From assembly GCA_019694595.1 (NCBI GenBank), contig JAIBBQ010000010.1:1-64000 (forward strand): 64,000 bases of DNA, in the 5' to 3' direction. The notes under the pieces are model-generated. The model was not told the origin of the DNA and ran no database searches. It worked only from the letters and a program-made list of their open reading frames with translations. The stretch comes from Myxococcaceae bacterium. Its GTDB lineage: Bacteria > Myxococcota > Myxococcia > Myxococcales > Myxococcaceae. The translations under genes and the position numbers were made by a program. Shown here piece after piece: positions 39,977 to 63,984 of the stretch (positions are counted from its first letter, which is position 1; each line of letters begins with the position of its first letter).

Positions 39977-40989
39977 TGCGGTGGCTGTGCGCCCTCCTGT
40001 TGCTCGCCGGTTGCCGCATCGAGCGCGTCTCGCCGAGCGCGGGCGCGGCCGAAGGGGGCGACGAGCCCCAGGGTGACCTCTGGGTCTACACCTCGATGTA
40101 CCGCCACGTGGTCGACGCGCTCGACCCGGTGATCGCCAAGGCGCTCCCCAAGGTGAAGGTGCACTGGTTCCAGGGCGGCAGCGAGAAGGTGATGGCCCGG
40201 CTCGAGGCGGAGCTCGCCGCGGGCGGCACCCAGGCCGACGTGGTGCTGACGTCGGACCCGTTCTTCTACCAGCGCTTCAAGGACGAGGGCCGCTGGCTGC
40301 GCTACGTGTCGCCCAACGCGGTGCGGGTGTCGCGGCAGCTCATCGACCCCGACGGCGCCTTCACCGCGGTGCGGCTGTCGACGATGGTGATGATCCGCGG
40401 GAAGGACGCGGCGGCGCCGGAGTCCTTCGGTGCGCTGCGCGAGCCTCCGTTCAAGGACCAGGTCGCGCTGGGCGACGCGCTGACCTCGGGAACCGCCTTC
40501 ACCTGGGCGGTCTTCACCGAGTCCGCGCGCGGCGACCCCTGGTTCCGCATGCTGCGCCTCAACGGTGCGCGCGTCGCCGGCGGCAACGCCGCGGTGCTGC
40601 AGAAGGTGCAGAGCGGCGAGGCCAAGGTCGGCGTGGTGCTGCTGGAGAACGCGCTCAAGGCGAAGGCGGAAGGAGCGCCGATCGAGATCGCCTGGCCGGC
40701 CGACGGGGCGGTGGTGATCCCCGGCGACGCGGCGATCTTCTCCACCACCCGGCACCGCCGTGCGGCTGAAGGGCTCATCGACGTGCTCCTGAGCCCCGAG
40801 GGGCAAGACGTCATCGTCCGCCTGGGCGACATGCACGGGGTCGATCCGCGCGCCGCTGGCCCTCGGGGCGAGCCGGGCGTGGAAGGGCTCCTGGTGCGCA
40901 GCCAGCCGTGGACCGAAGGCATGCGGGAGAGCGGCGCCCAGACCGGCGAGCAGGTGAAGCGGCGCTTCCGTGAGGCCTTCTCCCAGTGA
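39976..40989 (+). CDS. ABC-importer substrate-binding lipoprotein (iron/AEP-type)
   Basis: 337 residues with a signal peptide and lipobox LLAGC (Cys13). The mature part has the type-II periplasmic binding protein fold of the FbpA/PotD-like cluster (DLWVYTSMYRHV at the start, DVVLTSDPFF). The Tyr-Tyr pair that ligates Fe3+ in FbpA is not seen, so the cargo may be another anion or organophosphonate. It is the first part of the importer and overlaps the permease gene by 4 bp. Confidence 0.87.
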   Translation: MRWLCALLLLAGCRIERVSPSAGAAEGGDEPQGDLWVYTSMYRHVVDALDPVIAKALPKVKVHWFQGGSEKVMARLEAELAAGGTQADVVLTSDPFFYQRFKDEGRWLRYVSPNAVRVSRQLIDPDGAFTAVRLSTMVMIRGKDAAAPESFGALREPPFKDQVALGDALTSGTAFTWAVFTESARGDPWFRMLRLNGARVAGGNAAVLQKVQSGEAKVGVVLLENALKAKAEGAPIEIAWPADGAVVIPGDAAIFSTTRHRRAAEGLIDVLLSPEGQDVIVRLGDMHGVDPRAAGPRGEPGVEGLLVRSQPWTEGMRESGAQTGEQVKRRFREAFSQ

Positions 40990-42622
40990 AGCGCTCGGCG
41001 CTCACCGCGGCCCTGCTGGCGCCGCTCGTGATCTTCGCCCTGCTGCCGCTGGCGGTGCTGGTCGTGCGCGGCCTGCGCTCGCCCGACGCCTGGGGGCTGC
41101 TGGTCGACCCGGCCACCTTCGCCGCGCTGCGGGGCACCACCATCACCTCGGCCGGCGCCGCGGCCATCGCCTTCGGGCTCGGGCTGCCGCTGGGGCTGTT
41201 GCTGGGGCGCACCGACCTGCCCTGGTCGCGCGCCTGGCGAGCGCTCTTCGCGCTGCCGGCCGCGGTGCCGCCCTTCATCTTCGCCATGGGCTGGCAGCTG
41301 CTCGCCAACCCGCGCACCGGCCTGCTCAATACCGCGCTCCACCTGCACGTGGACATCTACTCCTCCACCGGCATCGCCTTCGTGCTCGGCCTGAGCGCGC
41401 TGCCGCTGGTGCTGCTGCCCACCCTGGCCTCGCTCGAGCAGGTCGACGCCGCGTGGGAAGAAGCGGCGCGCCTGGCAGGGGCCGGGCCCTGGCGCACGCT
41501 GCGCGACGTGGCGCTGCCGCTGGCGCTCCCGGCCGCCGGCTCGGGCGCGGCGCTGGCGTTCCTCTCTTCGGCGTCGGCCTTCGGCGTGCCCTACCTGCTC
41601 GGCGTCACCGCCTCGCCGCCCATCCCCACCCTCACCACCCGCATCTGGGCGCAGGTGCTGCTCGGGGCGCACGGGCTCGACCAGGCGGGCGCGCTCGCCC
41701 TGTGGCTGCTCGGGCTGTCCACCCTGGTCCTCGCGCTCGCCCAGCGCCTCGGCAAGCGCGGCCGGGTCTCGCTCGCCAGCGGGAAGGGCGCGCGTCGCAC
41801 CCGGCTGCCGCTGGGGCCGTCTCGGGTGGCGGTGAGCGCGACGACCGGGCTGGTCGCCTTCGTGCTGGTGGTGCTGCCGCTGCTCGTGGTGGTGGTCGCC
41901 TCGCTGCAGAAGAACTTCGGCACCTTCGACGCCTTCACCACCGCGCACTGGGCGCGGCTGAGCCACGACACGCGCACCCTGGGCGCCTTCGGCCAGAGCG
42001 CGCTGCTCGCGCTGGGCACCGGGGTCATCGTCACCGGCGCGGGCCTGGCGCTCGCCTGGGCGCGCAGCCGGCTCGGCCAGCCCTTCGGCGCGGTGGCCTG
42101 GCTCGCCGCCTGGCCGTACGCCATTCCCGGCACGGTGCTCGCGCTGGGCCTCATCCTCGCGTTCAGCCTCGACACCCGGGTGGTGCTCTTCGACTCGGTG
42201 GCGCTGGTGCTGGCGCTGATGAACACCTCGTGGCTGCTCCTGGTGGCCTTCTCGGTGCGGCACCTGGCGCTCGGGCTGCGCGCCGCGCGCGATGGCCTGG
42301 AGCGGGTCGACCGCTCGCTCGCCGAGGCCGCCCGACTCTCGGGCGCCAACCGCCTGCGCGCCTTCCTCGACGGCACCCTGCCCCAACTGCGCGGCCCGCT
42401 CGTCGCCGGCTTCACGCTCGCCGTGCTCGCCTCGCTCACCGAGCTGACCATGGCCACCTTGCTGCTCCCGCCGGGCACCGACCTCCTGGGCACGCTGCTC
42501 TTCGAGCTGATGAGCTACGCCGACCCGGCGGGCGCGGCGGTGCTGGCCTGCGCGGTGGTGGCGGTGGTGCTGCTCGGCCAGGCGGCGATCGCCGCCGCGG
42601 CGCCCAGGAAGGTGGCCTCCTG

Positions 42623-58149: not shown

Positions 58150-59214
58150 GTGCCAGCCGTCGAGCTCAAGGCCATTCGCAAGTCGTTCGGCGACAACGCG
58201 ATCGTCAAGGGCGTGGATCTGGCGGTGAACGCCGGCGAGTTCCTGGTGATGGTGGGCCCGTCGGGCTGCGGCAAGACGACGCTGCTGCGCCTGGTGGCGG
58301 GCCTCGAGCAGGCGGACTCGGGCGACATCTTCTTCCACGGCAACAAGGTGAACGACGTGCCGCCGCGCGATCGCGACGTGGGCATGGTCTTCCAGAGCTA
58401 CGCGCTCTACCCGCACCTCTCGGTGCGCGAGAACCTCGCCTTCGGCGTCACCCTGCGGAAGATGCCGAAGGCCGAGGTCGACCAGCGCGTCGCCGAGGCC
58501 TCGCGCATGCTCGAGCTCGACGCGCTGCTCGACCGCAAGCCGAAGGCGCTCTCGGGTGGCCAGCGGCAACGCGTCGCCATCGGCCGCGTGCTGGTGCGCC
58601 GCCCGTCGCTCTTCCTCTTCGACGAGCCGCTGTCGAACCTGGACACCGCGCTGCGCGTGCAGATGCGCGGCGAGCTGGCGCGGCTGCACCAGCAGCTCGG
58701 GGTGACGATGATCTACGTCACCCACGACCAGGTCGAGGCGATGACGCTCGCCACCCGGGTCGCGGTCTTCAACCAGGGCGTGCTGCAGCAGCTGGGGCCG
58801 CCGCTCGAGCTGTACCACCGGCCGGCGAACACCTTCGTCGCCACCTTCCTCGGCTCGCCGTCGATGAACCTGCTGCCCGCGCGCCGCGAAGGCGCGCAGC
58901 TTTCGGGCGACGGCTTCACCCTGCGCGCGCCGGCCTCGCTCGCCGACGGGGGCGAGGTGCAGGTCGGCCTGCGCCCCGAGGATCTGCGCCTCGCCTCGTC
59001 GGGGCCGCTGTCCGGCACGGTGGTGGCGCTGGAGCGGCTGGGCTTCGACGGCTTCGCCTTCCTCAAGACGGCGGCCGGGCCGGTGACGGCGCGCTTCGAG
59101 AACGCCTCGGTGCAGGTGGGCGACCAGGTGAAGGTCGAGCTCCTCGGGGAGCAGGTGCACGTCTTCTCTCGCGACGGGGCCAAGGCGCTCTGTCACCCGG
59201 AGCCCAAGGCGTGA
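58150..59214 (+). CDS. sugar ABC-importer ATP-binding protein (MalK/UgpC-like)
   Basis: 354 residues from GTG 58150, just where the family begins (VELKAIRKSF). The ABC domain (1-235) contains GPSGCGKTT, FQSYALYPH, LSGGQRQR, LFDEP and THDQ. The C-terminal TOBE domain (about 240-354) is of the MalK/UgpC regulatory kind. It overlaps the fused binding-protein/permease gene by 4 bp. The imported sugar cannot be told from the ATPase. Confidence 0.93.
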   Translation: MPAVELKAIRKSFGDNAIVKGVDLAVNAGEFLVMVGPSGCGKTTLLRLVAGLEQADSGDIFFHGNKVNDVPPRDRDVGMVFQSYALYPHLSVRENLAFGVTLRKMPKAEVDQRVAEASRMLELDALLDRKPKALSGGQRQRVAIGRVLVRRPSLFLFDEPLSNLDTALRVQMRGELARLHQQLGVTMIYVTHDQVEAMTLATRVAVFNQGVLQQLGPPLELYHRPANTFVATFLGSPSMNLLPARREGAQLSGDGFTLRAPASLADGGEVQVGLRPEDLRLASSGPLSGTVVALERLGFDGFAFLKTAAGPVTARFENASVQVGDQVKVELLGEQVHVFSRDGAKALCHPEPKA

Positions 59215-61349
59215 AGGCCTGCCTGGCGCTGGCGTGCGTGTTCGCGGCCACCGCCCAGGCGGACGAGTTGACGCTGTGGCACGCGTACCGCGGCGGCGAA
59301 GAGCAGGCGCTCGAGCAGGCGACCAAGGCCTTCACCGCGCAGACGGGGCACACCGTCACCCTGCTCGCGGTGCCGTACGACGCCTTCTCCGCCAAGCTCT
59401 CGTCGGCCATCCCCCACGGCGCGGGGCCCGACGTCTTCATCTTCGCGCACGAGCGGGTGCGGCAATTCGTGCGGCTGGACATGCTGGCCACCTCCACCGG
59501 CAAGCTCGACCCGTCGGTGTACCTGCCGGCGGCGATCGACGCGCTGGAGGTCGACGGCCAGAGCTACGGCTACCCGCTGTCGCTCAAGTGCCTGGCGCTC
59601 TACGTGAACGACGCGCTGGTGACGAAGGCGCCCGACACCACCGCGGAGTTCCTCGCGATGGCGCCGCGGCTGTCGGCGGCGGACCGCAACCAGTTCGCGC
59701 TCGCCTACGAGGCGGGCGACTTCTACTACCACGCGCCGATCCTCCTCGGCTTCCAGGCGCCGCTCTTCGACGCGCAGGGCAAGGCGAGCTTCGATTCGCC
59801 GGGCATGACGCACTCGCTGCAATTCGTGCGCGGGCTGCAGGACAAGGGCTTCATGCCGCAGGAGTCGTCGAGCGCGCTGGTGAAGTCGCTCTTCAACGAC
59901 GGCCAGGCGGCGATGGTCATCTCCGGGCCGTGGTTCGCGGGGGAGATCGCCGAAGGGCTGCGCTACTCGGTGCACCCGCTGCCGGTGGTGAGCGAGACGC
60001 AGGAGCCGATGCACCCGTTCCTCGGCGTGGAAGCGGCGTTCGTCTCCGCGCGCTCGACCAAGGCGGCCGCGGCGAACGCGCTGGCGGAGTTCCTCGCCAG
60101 GGGCGAAGGCGCGCGGCTGCGGGTGACGGTGGGCCGGCAGATCCCCGCGGAGACGGCGGCGTACGAGCGCCCCGAGGTGGCCCAGGACACCTTCATCCAG
60201 TCGTTCCACCGCGCGGCGGCGAACGCGCGGCCGACGCCCAACACGCTGGAGATGGCGCGGCTGTGGGAGCCGATGAAGCTCACCCTGCGCGCGGTGCTGC
60301 AGGGCACGGCGGCGGCCGAAGACGGCGGGGCGGTCGCGGCGCGGCGCTACCGGGCGCTCAACCGCGAGGCGCCGCCGGAGACCTCGCCGGTGCCGTGGCT
60401 CCTCGCGCTCGGCGCGGCGGTGGTGGGCTTCGTGCTCTGGCAGTCGAGGAAGAAGAAGGAGAAGGCGCCCGACCTCAAGAAGGCCATCGTCTGGGTGGCG
60501 CCGGCGGCGGTGGGCGTGCTGGTGCTGGTGCTGATCCCCTTCGTGGTGGGGCTGTCGCTGTCCGTCTTCCACCACGACGCGGGCCACTACACCTTCGTGG
60601 GGAGCGCCAACTTCACCGACATCCTCACCTCCAAGGGCTACCGGGTGACGGAGCCGTTGAGCTTCTGGTTCACGCTCGCGGTGACGGTGCTGTGGACGGC
60701 GGTGAACGTGTTCCTGCACGTCGCGGTGGGGCTGGCGCTGGCGCTGGCGCTGAAGAGCCCGCTGCTCAAGCTGCGCGGGCTGTTCCGGGTGCTGCTCATC
60801 GTGCCCTGGGCGGTGCCGAACTACATCACCGCGCTGATGTGGAAGGGGCTCTTCCACCGGCAGTTCGGCGCCATCAACGGCCTCTTGCATCTGCTGGGCG
60901 TGGAGCCGGTGAGCTGGTTCACCCACTTCTCGACCTCGTTCGCGGCCAACGTGTGCACCAACACCTGGCTGGGCTTCCCCTTCATGATGGTGGTGGCGCT
61001 GGGCGCGCTGCAGGCGATTCCGCAGGACCTCTACGAGGCGGCGGAGGTCGACGGCGCGTCGAAGTGGACGCAGTTCACCCGCATCACCCTGCCGCTGCTC
61101 AAGCCGGCGATGTTGCCCGCGGTCGTGCTGGGCACGGTGTGGACCTTCAACATGTTCAACGTCATCTACCTGGTGTCGGGCGGTGACCCGGGCGGGGCGA
61201 CGGACATCCTGGTGAGCGAGGCGTTCCGCTGGGCGTTCCAGCGCAACGAGCAGTACGGCTTCGCGGCGGCGTACTCGGTGCTGATCTTCGTGGTGCTGCT
61301 CGGCTGGTCGGCGATCACCAAGCGGCTGGGCGCGGAGAAGACGGCGTGA
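59211..61349 (+). CDS. fused sugar-binding protein and CUT1 permease (MalE-MalF fusion)
   Basis: 712 residues from a GTG overlapping the ATPase stop by 4 bp. Residues 1-17 are a signal peptide. Residues 18-392 are a type-II periplasmic sugar-binding protein (DELTLWHAYRGGEEQALE at the start, GPWFAGEI). A membrane helix (396-411) leads to a positively charged RKKKEK, then a MalF-type permease (about 425-712) with an EAA loop (EAAEVDGASKWTQF from 609). Positive-inside charge fits a periplasmic binding domain and cytoplasmic EAA loop. In most CUT1 importers these are two proteins. The fused domain would not diffuse and sits next to its channel. Confidence 0.93.
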   Translation: MKACLALACVFAATAQADELTLWHAYRGGEEQALEQATKAFTAQTGHTVTLLAVPYDAFSAKLSSAIPHGAGPDVFIFAHERVRQFVRLDMLATSTGKLDPSVYLPAAIDALEVDGQSYGYPLSLKCLALYVNDALVTKAPDTTAEFLAMAPRLSAADRNQFALAYEAGDFYYHAPILLGFQAPLFDAQGKASFDSPGMTHSLQFVRGLQDKGFMPQESSSALVKSLFNDGQAAMVISGPWFAGEIAEGLRYSVHPLPVVSETQEPMHPFLGVEAAFVSARSTKAAAANALAEFLARGEGARLRVTVGRQIPAETAAYERPEVAQDTFIQSFHRAAANARPTPNTLEMARLWEPMKLTLRAVLQGTAAAEDGGAVAARRYRALNREAPPETSPVPWLLALGAAVVGFVLWQSRKKKEKAPDLKKAIVWVAPAAVGVLVLVLIPFVVGLSLSVFHHDAGHYTFVGSANFTDILTSKGYRVTEPLSFWFTLAVTVLWTAVNVFLHVAVGLALALALKSPLLKLRGLFRVLLIVPWAVPNYITALMWKGLFHRQFGAINGLLHLLGVEPVSWFTHFSTSFAANVCTNTWLGFPFMMVVALGALQAIPQDLYEAAEVDGASKWTQFTRITLPLLKPAMLPAVVLGTVWTFNMFNVIYLVSGGDPGGATDILVSEAFRWAFQRNEQYGFAAAYSVLIFVVLLGWSAITKRLGAEKTA

Positions 61350-62197
61350 AGAAGCAGTCGACCACCGCGCAGTCGGTGCTGCTCCACGTCGGCCTGGTGC
61401 TGATGAGCATCGTGGTGCTCTACCCGGTGCTGTGGGTGGTGAAGCTGGCGCTCTCGCCGGGGCAGGCGCCGAGCCTGAGCGCGAGCCCGCTGCCCGACGC
61501 GGTGACGTTCGACAACTTCAAGGACGTGCTGCTCGCCAGCGACACTCAAGGGCGCTGGCTCTTCGGGCGGCAGCTGCTGGCGAGCCTCACGGTGTCGTCG
61601 GCGACGACGATCGTCGGGCTGACCCTGTCGGTGAGCGCGGCGTGGGCGCTCTCGCGCTTCCGCTTCCCGGGGCGCGAAGGCGGCATGCAGGTGCTGCTCA
61701 TCACCCAGATGTTCCCGGCGACGCTGATGCTGGTGCCGCTGTACGGCATCCTCGAGAAGCTGGGGCTGCTCGACAGCCTGACCGGGCTGGTGCTCGTGTA
61801 CTCGACGACGTCGGTGCCCTTCTGCGTGTGGATGCTCAAGGGCTACTTCGACACGCTCCCCAAGGAGCTCGAGGAAGCGGCGATCGTCGACGGCGCCTCC
61901 ACCGCGCAGGTGTTCTTCAAGGTGGTGCTGCCGCTCGCGCGGCCGGCGCTGGCGGTGACCGCGCTCTTCTCCTTCATGCAGGCGTGGAACGAGTTCATCC
62001 TCGCGGCGACGCTGCTCAACGACGCGGGGCGCTTCACGCTCCCGGTGGCGCTGCAGCGCTTCGTGGGCGAGTACAAGGTCGAGTGGGGCCGCTTCGCCGC
62101 GGGCGCGCTGGTGGTCTCGGCGCCGGTGATGGCGCTCTTCTTCGCGCTGCAGAAGCACCTGGTCGGCGGGCTCACCGCGGGCGGCGTGAAGGGCTAG
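61346..62197 (+). CDS. sugar ABC-importer permease (MalG-like)
   Basis: 283 residues with six membrane segments and the EAA loop EEAAIVDGASTAQVFFKVVLP near residue 178, typical of MalG-type CUT1 permeases. It overlaps the fused gene by 4 bp, so the three genes make a complete transporter: ATPase, binding protein-permease and second permease. No sugar-catabolic gene is adjacent. Confidence 0.94.
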   Translation: MKKQSTTAQSVLLHVGLVLMSIVVLYPVLWVVKLALSPGQAPSLSASPLPDAVTFDNFKDVLLASDTQGRWLFGRQLLASLTVSSATTIVGLTLSVSAAWALSRFRFPGREGGMQVLLITQMFPATLMLVPLYGILEKLGLLDSLTGLVLVYSTTSVPFCVWMLKGYFDTLPKELEEAAIVDGASTAQVFFKVVLPLARPALAVTALFSFMQAWNEFILAATLLNDAGRFTLPVALQRFVGEYKVEWGRFAAGALVVSAPVMALFFALQKHLVGGLTAGGVKG

Positions 62198-62300: not shown

Positions 62301-63176
62301 ATGCGCACCGTCCCCCGATCGAACGTTCCCCACCCCGCCGCCGCGCGACCTGGCCCCAGGACGACGCCGGCGTTCACCCAGCAGGCCGAGGTGCTGCAGA
62401 TGACGCCCACCAAGGCGACGCCGGCCGGCCTTCGCGCGGCGATCGAGGTGGCGCGTCGACCGAACGTCACCATCGCCAGCCAGCAGCCGGTACCGGGGCT
62501 GCCTCCGTCGCGCTGGACGCAGGTGGTGCCGACGATGGGCCGCACGCCGCAGCAGGTCGCCGCCTCGGTGGTCCACGCGCTCACCGCGGCGAACCCTGCC
62601 CCGGCGCGGGTGCTCCTGGACGAGCTCCGGGGCGACTCGAAGCACACCATCTCCGGCGCGGTGCGGATCCTGGCGAGGCAGCACCCTGAGCTCCGCGGGC
62701 GCTGGGGCGTCTACCTCTCCGGCGGCTCCCTGGCGCACGCGCGCAACCTCAACGACGAAGGCAAGAAGCCCCAGGGGGCGCTCGACTTCGTGCACGAGGG
62801 CGGCGGCTACGTGGTGGCGGAGATGTACGACCCCAAGCTCTTCGACCACCGGGTGATCGACTACCTGCGCTCGAAGGGCGTGAAGCCGTCGGTGGTGATC
62901 GGCGTCGACGAGAAGCACCGGGCGAAGAACGGGGTGATGACCGGGGTGCTCGACGATGGCGTCCGCGGCGACGCGCAGCTGCGCAGCCGGGTGGCCAGGG
63001 CGAAGGTGGCCTTTCCCGACCTCTTCCAGCGGGGCGCGGTGGGGGCGTGGGTGTTCCGCGACGTGCCGCGGCGGGGCGGCAACGGCCCCGACGAGGCGAT
63101 CGACGTGCCGCGGCGGCTGCGGCTCTTCTCCAGCCTGACGGCGGCGGCCCACGGCGGGGACAACTTCGCGCCCTGA
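62301..63176 (+). CDS. hypothetical protein, conserved-looking C-terminal half
   Basis: 291 residues, unknown. The first 80 are low-complexity Pro/Ala/Thr-rich and may be a disordered region. The rest looks folded (about 85-285), with WGVYLSGGSLAHARN, DEKHRAKNGVMTGVLDDG and a closing RRLRLFSSLTAAAHGG. No signal peptide, membrane helix or metal motif is evident. The 100 bp upstream are AT-richer than usual for this window, and TTCACA (62246) with TAACCA (62268) could be a weak promoter. Confidence 0.65.
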   Translation: MRTVPRSNVPHPAAARPGPRTTPAFTQQAEVLQMTPTKATPAGLRAAIEVARRPNVTIASQQPVPGLPPSRWTQVVPTMGRTPQQVAASVVHALTAANPAPARVLLDELRGDSKHTISGAVRILARQHPELRGRWGVYLSGGSLAHARNLNDEGKKPQGALDFVHEGGGYVVAEMYDPKLFDHRVIDYLRSKGVKPSVVIGVDEKHRAKNGVMTGVLDDGVRGDAQLRSRVARAKVAFPDLFQRGAVGAWVFRDVPRRGGNGPDEAIDVPRRLRLFSSLTAAAHGGDNFAP

Positions 63177-63222: not shown

Positions 63223-63984
63223 GTGTTCACCCTCGAAGGCCCCGGCCGCAAGCCGCACCACAACCGCGTCCTGGCGGCGACGCTGTCGATCATCGCCGGG
63301 TTCGTGAACTCCGCCGGGTTCATGCTGGTGGGGTCCTTCACCTCGCACGTCACCGGGCATGCGGGCCGGCTGGCGAGCGACGTCGCGGAGCAGAAGCTCC
63401 CTTCCGCCGCGAGCGCCTTCTTGCTGGTGCTGGCCTTCTTCTCGGGGGCCTTCGTGGCCAACATGGTGCTGCTCACGCGCATCGTGCGTCGGCGACCGCT
63501 CATCTACGCCGCCCTGCTCTTCCTCGAAGGTGGGCTCCTGGCGACCTTCGTGCAGCTCATCAACGGGGTGGTGCTGGTGCCCGAGGTGCCGGTGGCCGAC
63601 GCGGAGGCCAGCATCCTGTGCTTCGCGATGGGCGTGCAGAACTCGATGGTGACGCTGATCTCCGACGCGCGGGTGCGCACCACCCACCTCACCGGCGTGG
63701 TGACCGACCTGGGCATCGAGGCGGCGCGGTGGGTGCGCTTCCTCATCTGGCGGGCGGCGCCGACCTACTCGTCGTCGGTCCCGCCGCCGCAGCCGGCGAC
63801 CGCGCTGCTGCTCCTCAACATCTTCGGCGGCTTCATGACCGGGGGCGTGCTCGGCGCGCTGAGCACCCAGCTGTGGGGCGCCCAGGCGATGTACGCCCCG
63901 GCGCTGGCGGCGAGCCTCGCTGGCGCCTACGCGGTGTGGTCCGGCACGCGCGCCCCGGCCGCGCCGGCGACAGGGCCTTCGTAG
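63223..63984 (+). CDS. DUF1275 (YoaK-like) membrane protein
   Basis: 253 residues from a GTG. About six hydrophobic segments match the DUF1275/YoaK family of small inner-membrane proteins, with the usual N-terminal GFVNSAGFMLVGSFTSHVTG (helix 1 and loop) and C-terminal FGGFMTGGVLG. The family's function is unsettled. The ribosome site is poor. The stop lies 16 bp before the right edge of the window, so the gene is complete. Confidence 0.88.
   Translation: MFTLEGPGRKPHHNRVLAATLSIIAGFVNSAGFMLVGSFTSHVTGHAGRLASDVAEQKLPSAASAFLLVLAFFSGAFVANMVLLTRIVRRRPLIYAALLFLEGGLLATFVQLINGVVLVPEVPVADAEASILCFAMGVQNSMVTLISDARVRTTHLTGVVTDLGIEAARWVRFLIWRAAPTYSSSVPPPQPATALLLLNIFGGFMTGGVLGALSTQLWGAQAMYAPALAASLAGAYAVWSGTRAPAAPATGPS

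Follow-up and report, generated by a model that had tools for sequence, protein, structure and literature searches.

A MalE-like binding protein fused to a MalF-like permease in a CUT1-type importer of a myxobacterium

Introduction

The covalent fusion of a substrate-binding protein (SBP) to the permease of an importer is best described for GlnPQ and OpuA, and here we report indications that such fusions are common in one bacterial phylum, and have probably evolved repeatedly, in what is likely to be a maltodextrin importer. We examined a stretch of 64,000 nucleotides from a Myxococcaceae bacterium (GenBank assembly GCA_019694595.1, contig JAIBBQ010000010.1, positions 1 to 64,000; hereafter the window), in which a single gene encodes a chain of 712 residues with a MalE-like SBP followed by a MalF-like permease. 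The fusion of MalE to MalF is already known as a kind. By its title, the work of Licht et al. (Res Microbiol 2019;170:1-12) concerns a maltose/maltodextrin transporter in which MalF carries a single fused MalE domain, and as far as this title goes, the system resembles that of the window, where a lone MalE-like domain and MalF likewise share a chain. A passage of PMC9045158 cites the same work for the statement that SBPs can be fused to the permease. The PDB entry 6FFL, released in 2018, is titled as the MalE domain of Bdellovibrio bacteriovorus bound to maltotriose, and its molecule name is that of a transport permease homologue. We take this entry and the published transporter to be one work. 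The MalE-like domain of the window shares the MalE fold of 6FFL (VIA-align Z 42.0, root-mean-square deviation 3.1, 366 residues aligned), whereas the identity in the structural alignment is 21%.

The window system has in common with MalEFGK2 of Escherichia coli the MalE, MalF, MalG and MalK parts, the core permease helices and a loop of the EAA type. In E. coli, MalE is free in the periplasm and MalF consists of eight helices with a periplasmic domain of 180 residues, as described in a passage of PMC2246101. OpuA and GlnPQ are similar to the window system in that a binding domain is covalently joined to the permease (PMC11065425 and PMC8025302). However, OpuA is a homodimer with two substrate-binding domains (SBDs) and GlnPQ carries tandem SBDs, while the window system would be, by its gene content, a heterodimer with a single SBD. 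The two or more binding domains per transporter that mark OpuA and GlnPQ are absent here, and no SBP domain was found by Pfam in the partner MalG-like gene. The NCBIfam model NF043073 is named as a spermidine/putrescine permease/SBP fusion and, by that name, also combines receptor and permease in one chain, but it belongs to a polyamine family, has 1021 positions, and matched only the permease of our chain, with 21 bits against a cut-off of 1250. In Bacillus subtilis ArtRQP, according to part of PMC11466899, the SBP is fused to a membrane subunit, and the relevant passages of PMC3899296 speak of fused ATPases only. Passages of the Myxococcus xanthus transporter paper PMC3924187 contain no mention of a MalE-MalF fusion, and our literature search found no title naming such a fusion save that of the cited Licht et al. 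2019. What is added here is the breadth of the fusion in one phylum, a conserved tether, and a likely repeated origin.

A MalE-like and a MalF-like domain in one uninterrupted frame

The fused chain is encoded on the + strand, as are all window features with coordinates in this and the following sections except where only positions are given, at positions 59211 to 61349, in an uninterrupted frame with a GTG start and zero internal stops. The N-terminal part matched the Pfam families SBP_bac_8 at residues 36-326 (2.5e-31) and SBP_bac_1 at residues 31-297 (2.8e-25), and the C-terminal part matched BPD_transp_1 (PF00528) at residues 507-697 (4.8e-18). Among the NCBIfam SBP profiles the top score on the chain was that of MalE, in which positions 19-391 of 396 were aligned with residues 6-377 at 146.8 bits, under the equivalog cut-off of 291; GanS matched as well, with 126.8 bits. 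The NCBIfam MalF profile was aligned through positions 259-509 of 520 with residues 457-701. Its score of 191 bits is under the equivalog cut-off of 392, and the chain is therefore not an enteric MalF equivalog in the sense of NF008232, which combines the curated cut-off with the presence of the pre-core region. Since the match begins at profile position 259, the pre-core region of E. coli MalF is missing here and the SBP stands in its N-terminal place. We also considered a MalF with its own pre-core region inside the fused chain, and rejected it because the profile match begins after that region.

Residues 1-17 (59211 to 59261) have the character of a signal peptide, and from the sequence it is likely that the N-terminus is cleaved after AQA at residue 17, ahead of DE. 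Profiles, the AlphaFold2 model and VIA-align place the MalE-like domain at about residues 19-380 (59265 to 60350), and the MalF-like permease domain extends over about residues 423-712 (60477 to 61346) based on BPD_transp_1 and on a phmmer match of residues 458-702 to the E. coli MalF chain 2r6g_F (8.7e-47). Within the permease, the loop YEAAEVDGASKWTQF at residues 608-622 (61032 to 61076) contains A610, A611, D614, G615 and A616, which were invariant in an alignment of 46 sequences. We take this loop to be the EAA motif, which presumably has a coupling role.

The AlphaFold2 model of the fused chain had a mean predicted local distance difference test score (pLDDT) of 85.4 and a predicted template modelling score of 0.75, and the block means of pLDDT across residues 21-380 of the MalE-like domain were 88-97. 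When we compared this domain with known structures, VIA-align gave Z values of 40-42.5 to maltodextrin-binding proteins, including 6ffl, and both the Foldseek and VIA-align lists were dominated by maltose-binding protein (MBP) and MBP-tagged proteins. No MalF chain appeared among the 50 rows listed from each program, and so the identity of the permease rests on sequence.

The two domains are separated by a tether. The transmembrane helix at about residues 391-412 (60381 to 60446) was indicated by hydrophobicity, alignment and AlphaFold2: residues 391-409 form a hydrophobic stretch with a mean Kyte-Doolittle value of 1.78, and the model places a helix at residues 394-414. It is followed by RKKKEK at residues 413-418 (60447 to 60464), the presumed positive flank on the cytoplasmic side. 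Each of the 46 aligned chains is hydrophobic over a stretch at the tether (mean Kyte-Doolittle value above 1.0) and carries net positive charge after it, and in 42 of them the charge after the tether exceeds that before it. The conserved hydrophobic stretch and the positive charge behind it fit an N-out, C-in tether ahead of the permease. Across 108 short-fusion loci, some of which represent one gene repeated, the gap from SBP to permease was 34-49 residues and was 42 or 43 in 70 of them, while the linker sequence in the 46-chain alignment was proline-rich and variable.

The original prediction, made from the DNA letters, had described a 712-residue chain with a signal peptide, a complete MalE-like domain, a tether helix with RKKKEK and a MalF-like permease, and we confirmed its coordinates, length, domains and RKKKEK flank. 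The operon supplies the parts that characterize the CUT1 family, namely a MalE-type binding protein, two distinct PF00528 permease subunits, and a MalK-type ATPase with an OB/TOBE domain. The gene is accordingly well supported as a true fusion of SBP and permease that belongs to an importer of the CUT1 type.

Proposed transport mechanism

Based on these observations, we suggest, at a probability of about 85%, that the window encodes a CUT1 (MalEFGK2) importer for maltodextrin whose binding protein is held to the MalF-type subunit by a covalent tether. Export and removal of the signal peptide would leave the MalE-like domain in the periplasm, where a single helix, oriented N-out/C-in and positively charged on its cytoplasmic flank, would anchor it, and the chain would then re-enter the membrane as the permease. 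Together with the MalG-like permease, which is a subunit of its own, and a pair of MalK-like ATPases, the fused chain would form a MalEF-MalG-MalK2 assembly. The tethered domain would capture maltodextrin, close, and dock in cis on its own permease at a very high local concentration, and the docked domain would, as E. coli MalE does in its cycle, stimulate the hydrolysis of ATP and pass on the sugar, with no need for a free pool of binding protein. For OpuA, a calculation puts the tethered SBD at ~4 mM near the docking site (passage of PMC11065425), and by analogy the local concentration of the fused MalE may be similar. The gene content gives one SBP per MalF/MalG pair, which agrees with the fixed 1:1 ratio of binding protein to channel put forward in the original prediction.

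It has been reported by Bao and Duong that the maltose-forced dissociation of MalE limits transport (PMC3328499). A tethered domain would presumably not be lost in this way. The fused system would be a natural test of this dissociation limit, and a comparison of sister systems, some with a free and some with a fused receptor, could show directly why many importers maintain free binding protein in excess. It is also conceivable, although we hold it to be rather doubtful, that MalE became covalently captured by MalF on at least two occasions among the maltodextrin importers of myxobacteria, and that the fused form reached other phyla because the tether lifts the limit set by sugar-forced release; on this reading the receptor cannot leave, so that uptake should hold at high sugar concentration and no excess of binding protein should be needed. 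If this is true, what a free receptor pool is good for could readily be tested by comparing the sister systems of the split, short-fusion and long-fusion forms.

Substrate and alternative readings

The substrate of the fused importer is probably maltodextrin, because pocket aromatics of E. coli MBP are kept and many copies have GH13- and LamB-like genes at their sides. MBP residues W230, W340, Y155 and R66 are retained as W241, W352, Y172 and R82 in the fused chain, and W62, D65 and E153 are conservatively changed to F78, E81 and D170; we assume that these are the pocket residues of MBP. The M. xanthus copy of the fused gene adjoins a LamB porin and a GlgX-like GH13 enzyme, and among 57 loci of at least 11 kb, GH13-like genes were near 26 and LamB-like genes near 18.

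A LamB-like porin and a GlgX-like GH13 gene, at 52% and 55% to the flanking genes of M. xanthus, also stand together on another contig of the window genome (C324:28000-42000, locus L168).

Several observations weigh against the tethered maltodextrin importer. First, AlphaFold2 is less sure of the permease at about residues 511-590 and 651-680, and the model is that of a single chain and not of the complex. Second, MBP residues D14, K15 and E111 are replaced (R27, G28 and K126) in the window chain and in all 10 of the relatives compared, split forms included, so that the ligand may differ in detail. Third, the same test revealed neither a GH13-like nor a LamB-like neighbour at 31 of the 57 long loci, and these 57 include the two query loci, have many of their 26 GH13 cases from one family, and come with no background rate; the window copy itself has neither kind of neighbour. 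The replaced residues, the window copy with no adjoining sugar gene and the GanS match could all be accommodated if the importer took up another sugar, for example trehalose or galacto-oligosaccharides. We consider this unlikely, though still the best of the alternatives, in view of the higher score of the MalE profile (146.8 bits), the GH13 and LamB-like neighbours in many relatives, and the maltodextrin binders with bound maltodextrins that are listed among the nearest folds.

A fourth difficulty is that the chain could be cleaved near the tether, or that MalF could also be made from an internal start, in which case the two parts would act separately. A proline-rich linker of variable sequence would suit cleavage, but its length and the tether are conserved in distant copies, and the advantage of being fused would be left unexplained, so we regard separate action as quite improbable. 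Finally, the window genome has five other SBP_bac_8 matches, of which only the C59 match was inspected, and this one was polyamine-binding-like by eye. The four uninspected matches leave some room for a system in which the fused domain serves in docking or sensing while a free binding protein from elsewhere delivers the sugar. Against this, the fused domain retains the pocket aromatics and a complete fold, the inspected SBP looks like a polyamine binder, and the fused-chain query gave no other MalE-like match in the genome; delivery by a free receptor is accordingly very improbable.

An extra free MalE was considered as a candidate in its own right and rejected, as no second MalE-like domain was found in the window genome with the fused-chain query at E 1e-3. 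Elsewhere in the window, at 40189-41603, an SBP_bac_8 match (28.6 bits) lies beside a permease match; the two are in different frames and so are not fused.

Occurrence of the fusion among relatives

When we searched related genomes, a full-length, stop-free fusion was present in 20 of 60 near relatives, the window genome included. Full-length here means that at least 80% of the query was covered in one place; counts were made by eye from printed rows, and those for the lists of 195 and 95 genomes were made a second time. Among 195 genomes of the phylum, 142 had a match at 1e-60 and 53 had none. At least 74 genomes, again including that of the window, have the full-length stop-free chain, and its identity to the query ranges from 70% down to 40%. 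The other 68 of the 142 consist of 57 with a permease-only match as the best row, five with long fusions (G037, G044, G049, G053 and G056), four with fragments (G005, G013, G107 and G165), and two whose matches were not printed (G099 and G187), for which reason the full-length count is given as a lower bound. The same fusion was recovered in homologues, where the original prediction had proposed to look for it, but its statement that the arrangement is unusual in maltose-type systems is not supported in that form: by best listed match and with uneven sampling, the fused form is at least as frequent in the phylum as the permease-only form (74 versus 57 genomes), and a MalE-MalF fusion has already been published, judging from the title of that work.

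Both domains were in one frame at all 80 loci retained from a named collection, a figure biased toward fusion because these are the best 80 of 533 relatives, and several of the 80 are the same genes as in the sets of 60 and 195 genomes. The collection loci include M. xanthus AM003, Pyxidicoccus, Archangium, and metagenome-assembled genomes (MAGs) labelled Elusimicrobia, Sumerlaeota and several rumen bacteria, although these and other MAG labels may reflect binning errors. In the phylum of one MAG, the full-length chain was found in 33 of 95 genomes. Plasmid records gave 2445 matches, all below 60% identity, and wherever both domains were annotated among the matches listed, they were separate genes.

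The fusion gene is real and not a product of frameshift or misassembly, as stop-free full-length homologues occur in many genomes and the coding signal is even across the junction. The idea that an error joined neighbouring malE and malF, conceivable in that some relatives have the two as separate genes in the same order, has a negligible probability given that the same stop-free chain recurs at such divergent identities (at least 74 of 195 genomes), and given a third-position guanine and cytosine content of 0.96-1.00 in all 13 overlapping 100-codon slices of residues 1-700, which neither dips nor changes frame at the junction, the conserved spacing and tether, and the lack of room for the longer MalF N-terminus of split relatives.

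A record titled Comamonas sp. KCTC 72670 (L067) carries a myxobacterial mal locus whose LamB and GH13 neighbours are 92% identical to those of M. xanthus; perhaps this record is mislabelled or contaminated.

Split systems, long fusions and the permease tree

We opened 17 permease-only loci, and 16 of them were split operons with a free SBP and MalF, while L144 had no SBP in the fetched stretch. The free SBP has about 400 residues, and malE and malF stand in the same order as in the fusion. In 12 split loci (L036-L039, L046, L055, L140-L143, L150 and L151) MalF has 336-396 residues ahead of the core, and in L042 it has 256; the MalF start is ambiguous in L044, L045 and L048. The long fusions L040, L041, L043 and L052 have 108-199 residues separating the two domains.

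To place these forms, we used a permease tree of 89 of 108 rows, rooted with E. coli MalF as outgroup. Left off were L002-L006, L026-L035 and L147, loci lacking one domain, L019, L083, L133, L152 and L153, then 20 near copies from among the 24 loci L056-L079, and lastly 19 further near copies. Long branches belong to the E. coli outgroup, L047, L136, L145 and L146, and the placement of L047 is not trusted. In the tree, 64 short fusions fall within one branch of 66 (support 100/97), the other two members being L043 and L047, and the split loci L140-L143 lie just outside this branch. The long fusions L040, L041 and L052 group elsewhere with the split locus L042 (100/96). Fused and split forms on this tree need a minimum of two changes from one to the other. 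Since the short fusions share a clade to which three of the long fusions do not belong, the fusion most simply arose twice, although one gain with several losses could also give this pattern. The split relatives occupy a different branch and are not the same gene interrupted by a stop, so the alternative of separate genes at this locus, which would have spoken against the original prediction, fails.

An example of a split MalF with an N-terminal extension is L036:3742-4860, and by eye such extensions recall a Cache-like sensor domain. No Pfam family matched the extensions of L036, L037 and L038 at the cut-off, and the L036 extension had no convincing sequence match in the PDB (best 0.27). The long fusions L040:2192-4972, L041:2828-5581 and L052:1395-4085, with about 150-200 residues between the domains, stand apart from the main clade, and the interdomain parts of L041 and L052 gave no Pfam family. 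In Pfam searches of eight chains up to E 0.1, the extra parts of split MalF and long fusions gave only weak matches below the cut-off, such as T4SS_pilin (0.028) in L038 and CwsA (0.02) near the L047 tether. L047:656-2941 encodes a very divergent SBP-permease fusion of 761 residues whose N-terminus resembles that of a lipoprotein. A long fusion is present in the same genome, and L047 may represent another independent fusion.

Operon and neighbouring genes

The fused gene lies between those for its presumed partners, both on the + strand. Upstream, the MalK-like ATPase (58150 to 59214) was identified by ABC_tran, OB_MalK and TOBE_2, and reached 436 bits with the UgpC subfamily profile against a cut-off of 432. 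Its frame opens at TTG 58093, but the start is likely GTG 58150; several MalK homologues align from query residue 20, which corresponds to the latter position. The MalK stop and the fusion start overlap in GTGA (59211 to 59214), which suggests translational coupling, and an in-frame overlap of 4 nucleotides occurs in 30 of 45 adjoining MalK/fusion pairs. A second GTGA overlap (61346 to 61349) joins the fusion stop to the MalG start, and here the in-frame overlap of 4 nucleotides is found in 42 of 52 adjoining pairs.

The MalG-like permease (61346 to 62197), the unfused partner, matched BPD_transp_1 (4.6e-22) and the MalG profile (190.9 bits, below the cut-off of 261); the alignment of EAA-type loop residues covered the fused chain. 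The fused gene has no adjoining MalG gene in L085 and L092 (rumen MAGs), in L112, and in L109, which is a contig of 6 kb; in these genomes a MalG-like gene with 61-65% identity is located elsewhere. Downstream of the operon, window positions 62301-63176 hold a frame of 291 residues that matched nothing in Pfam or NCBIfam at 1e-3, and positions 63223-63984 encode a DUF1275 protein.

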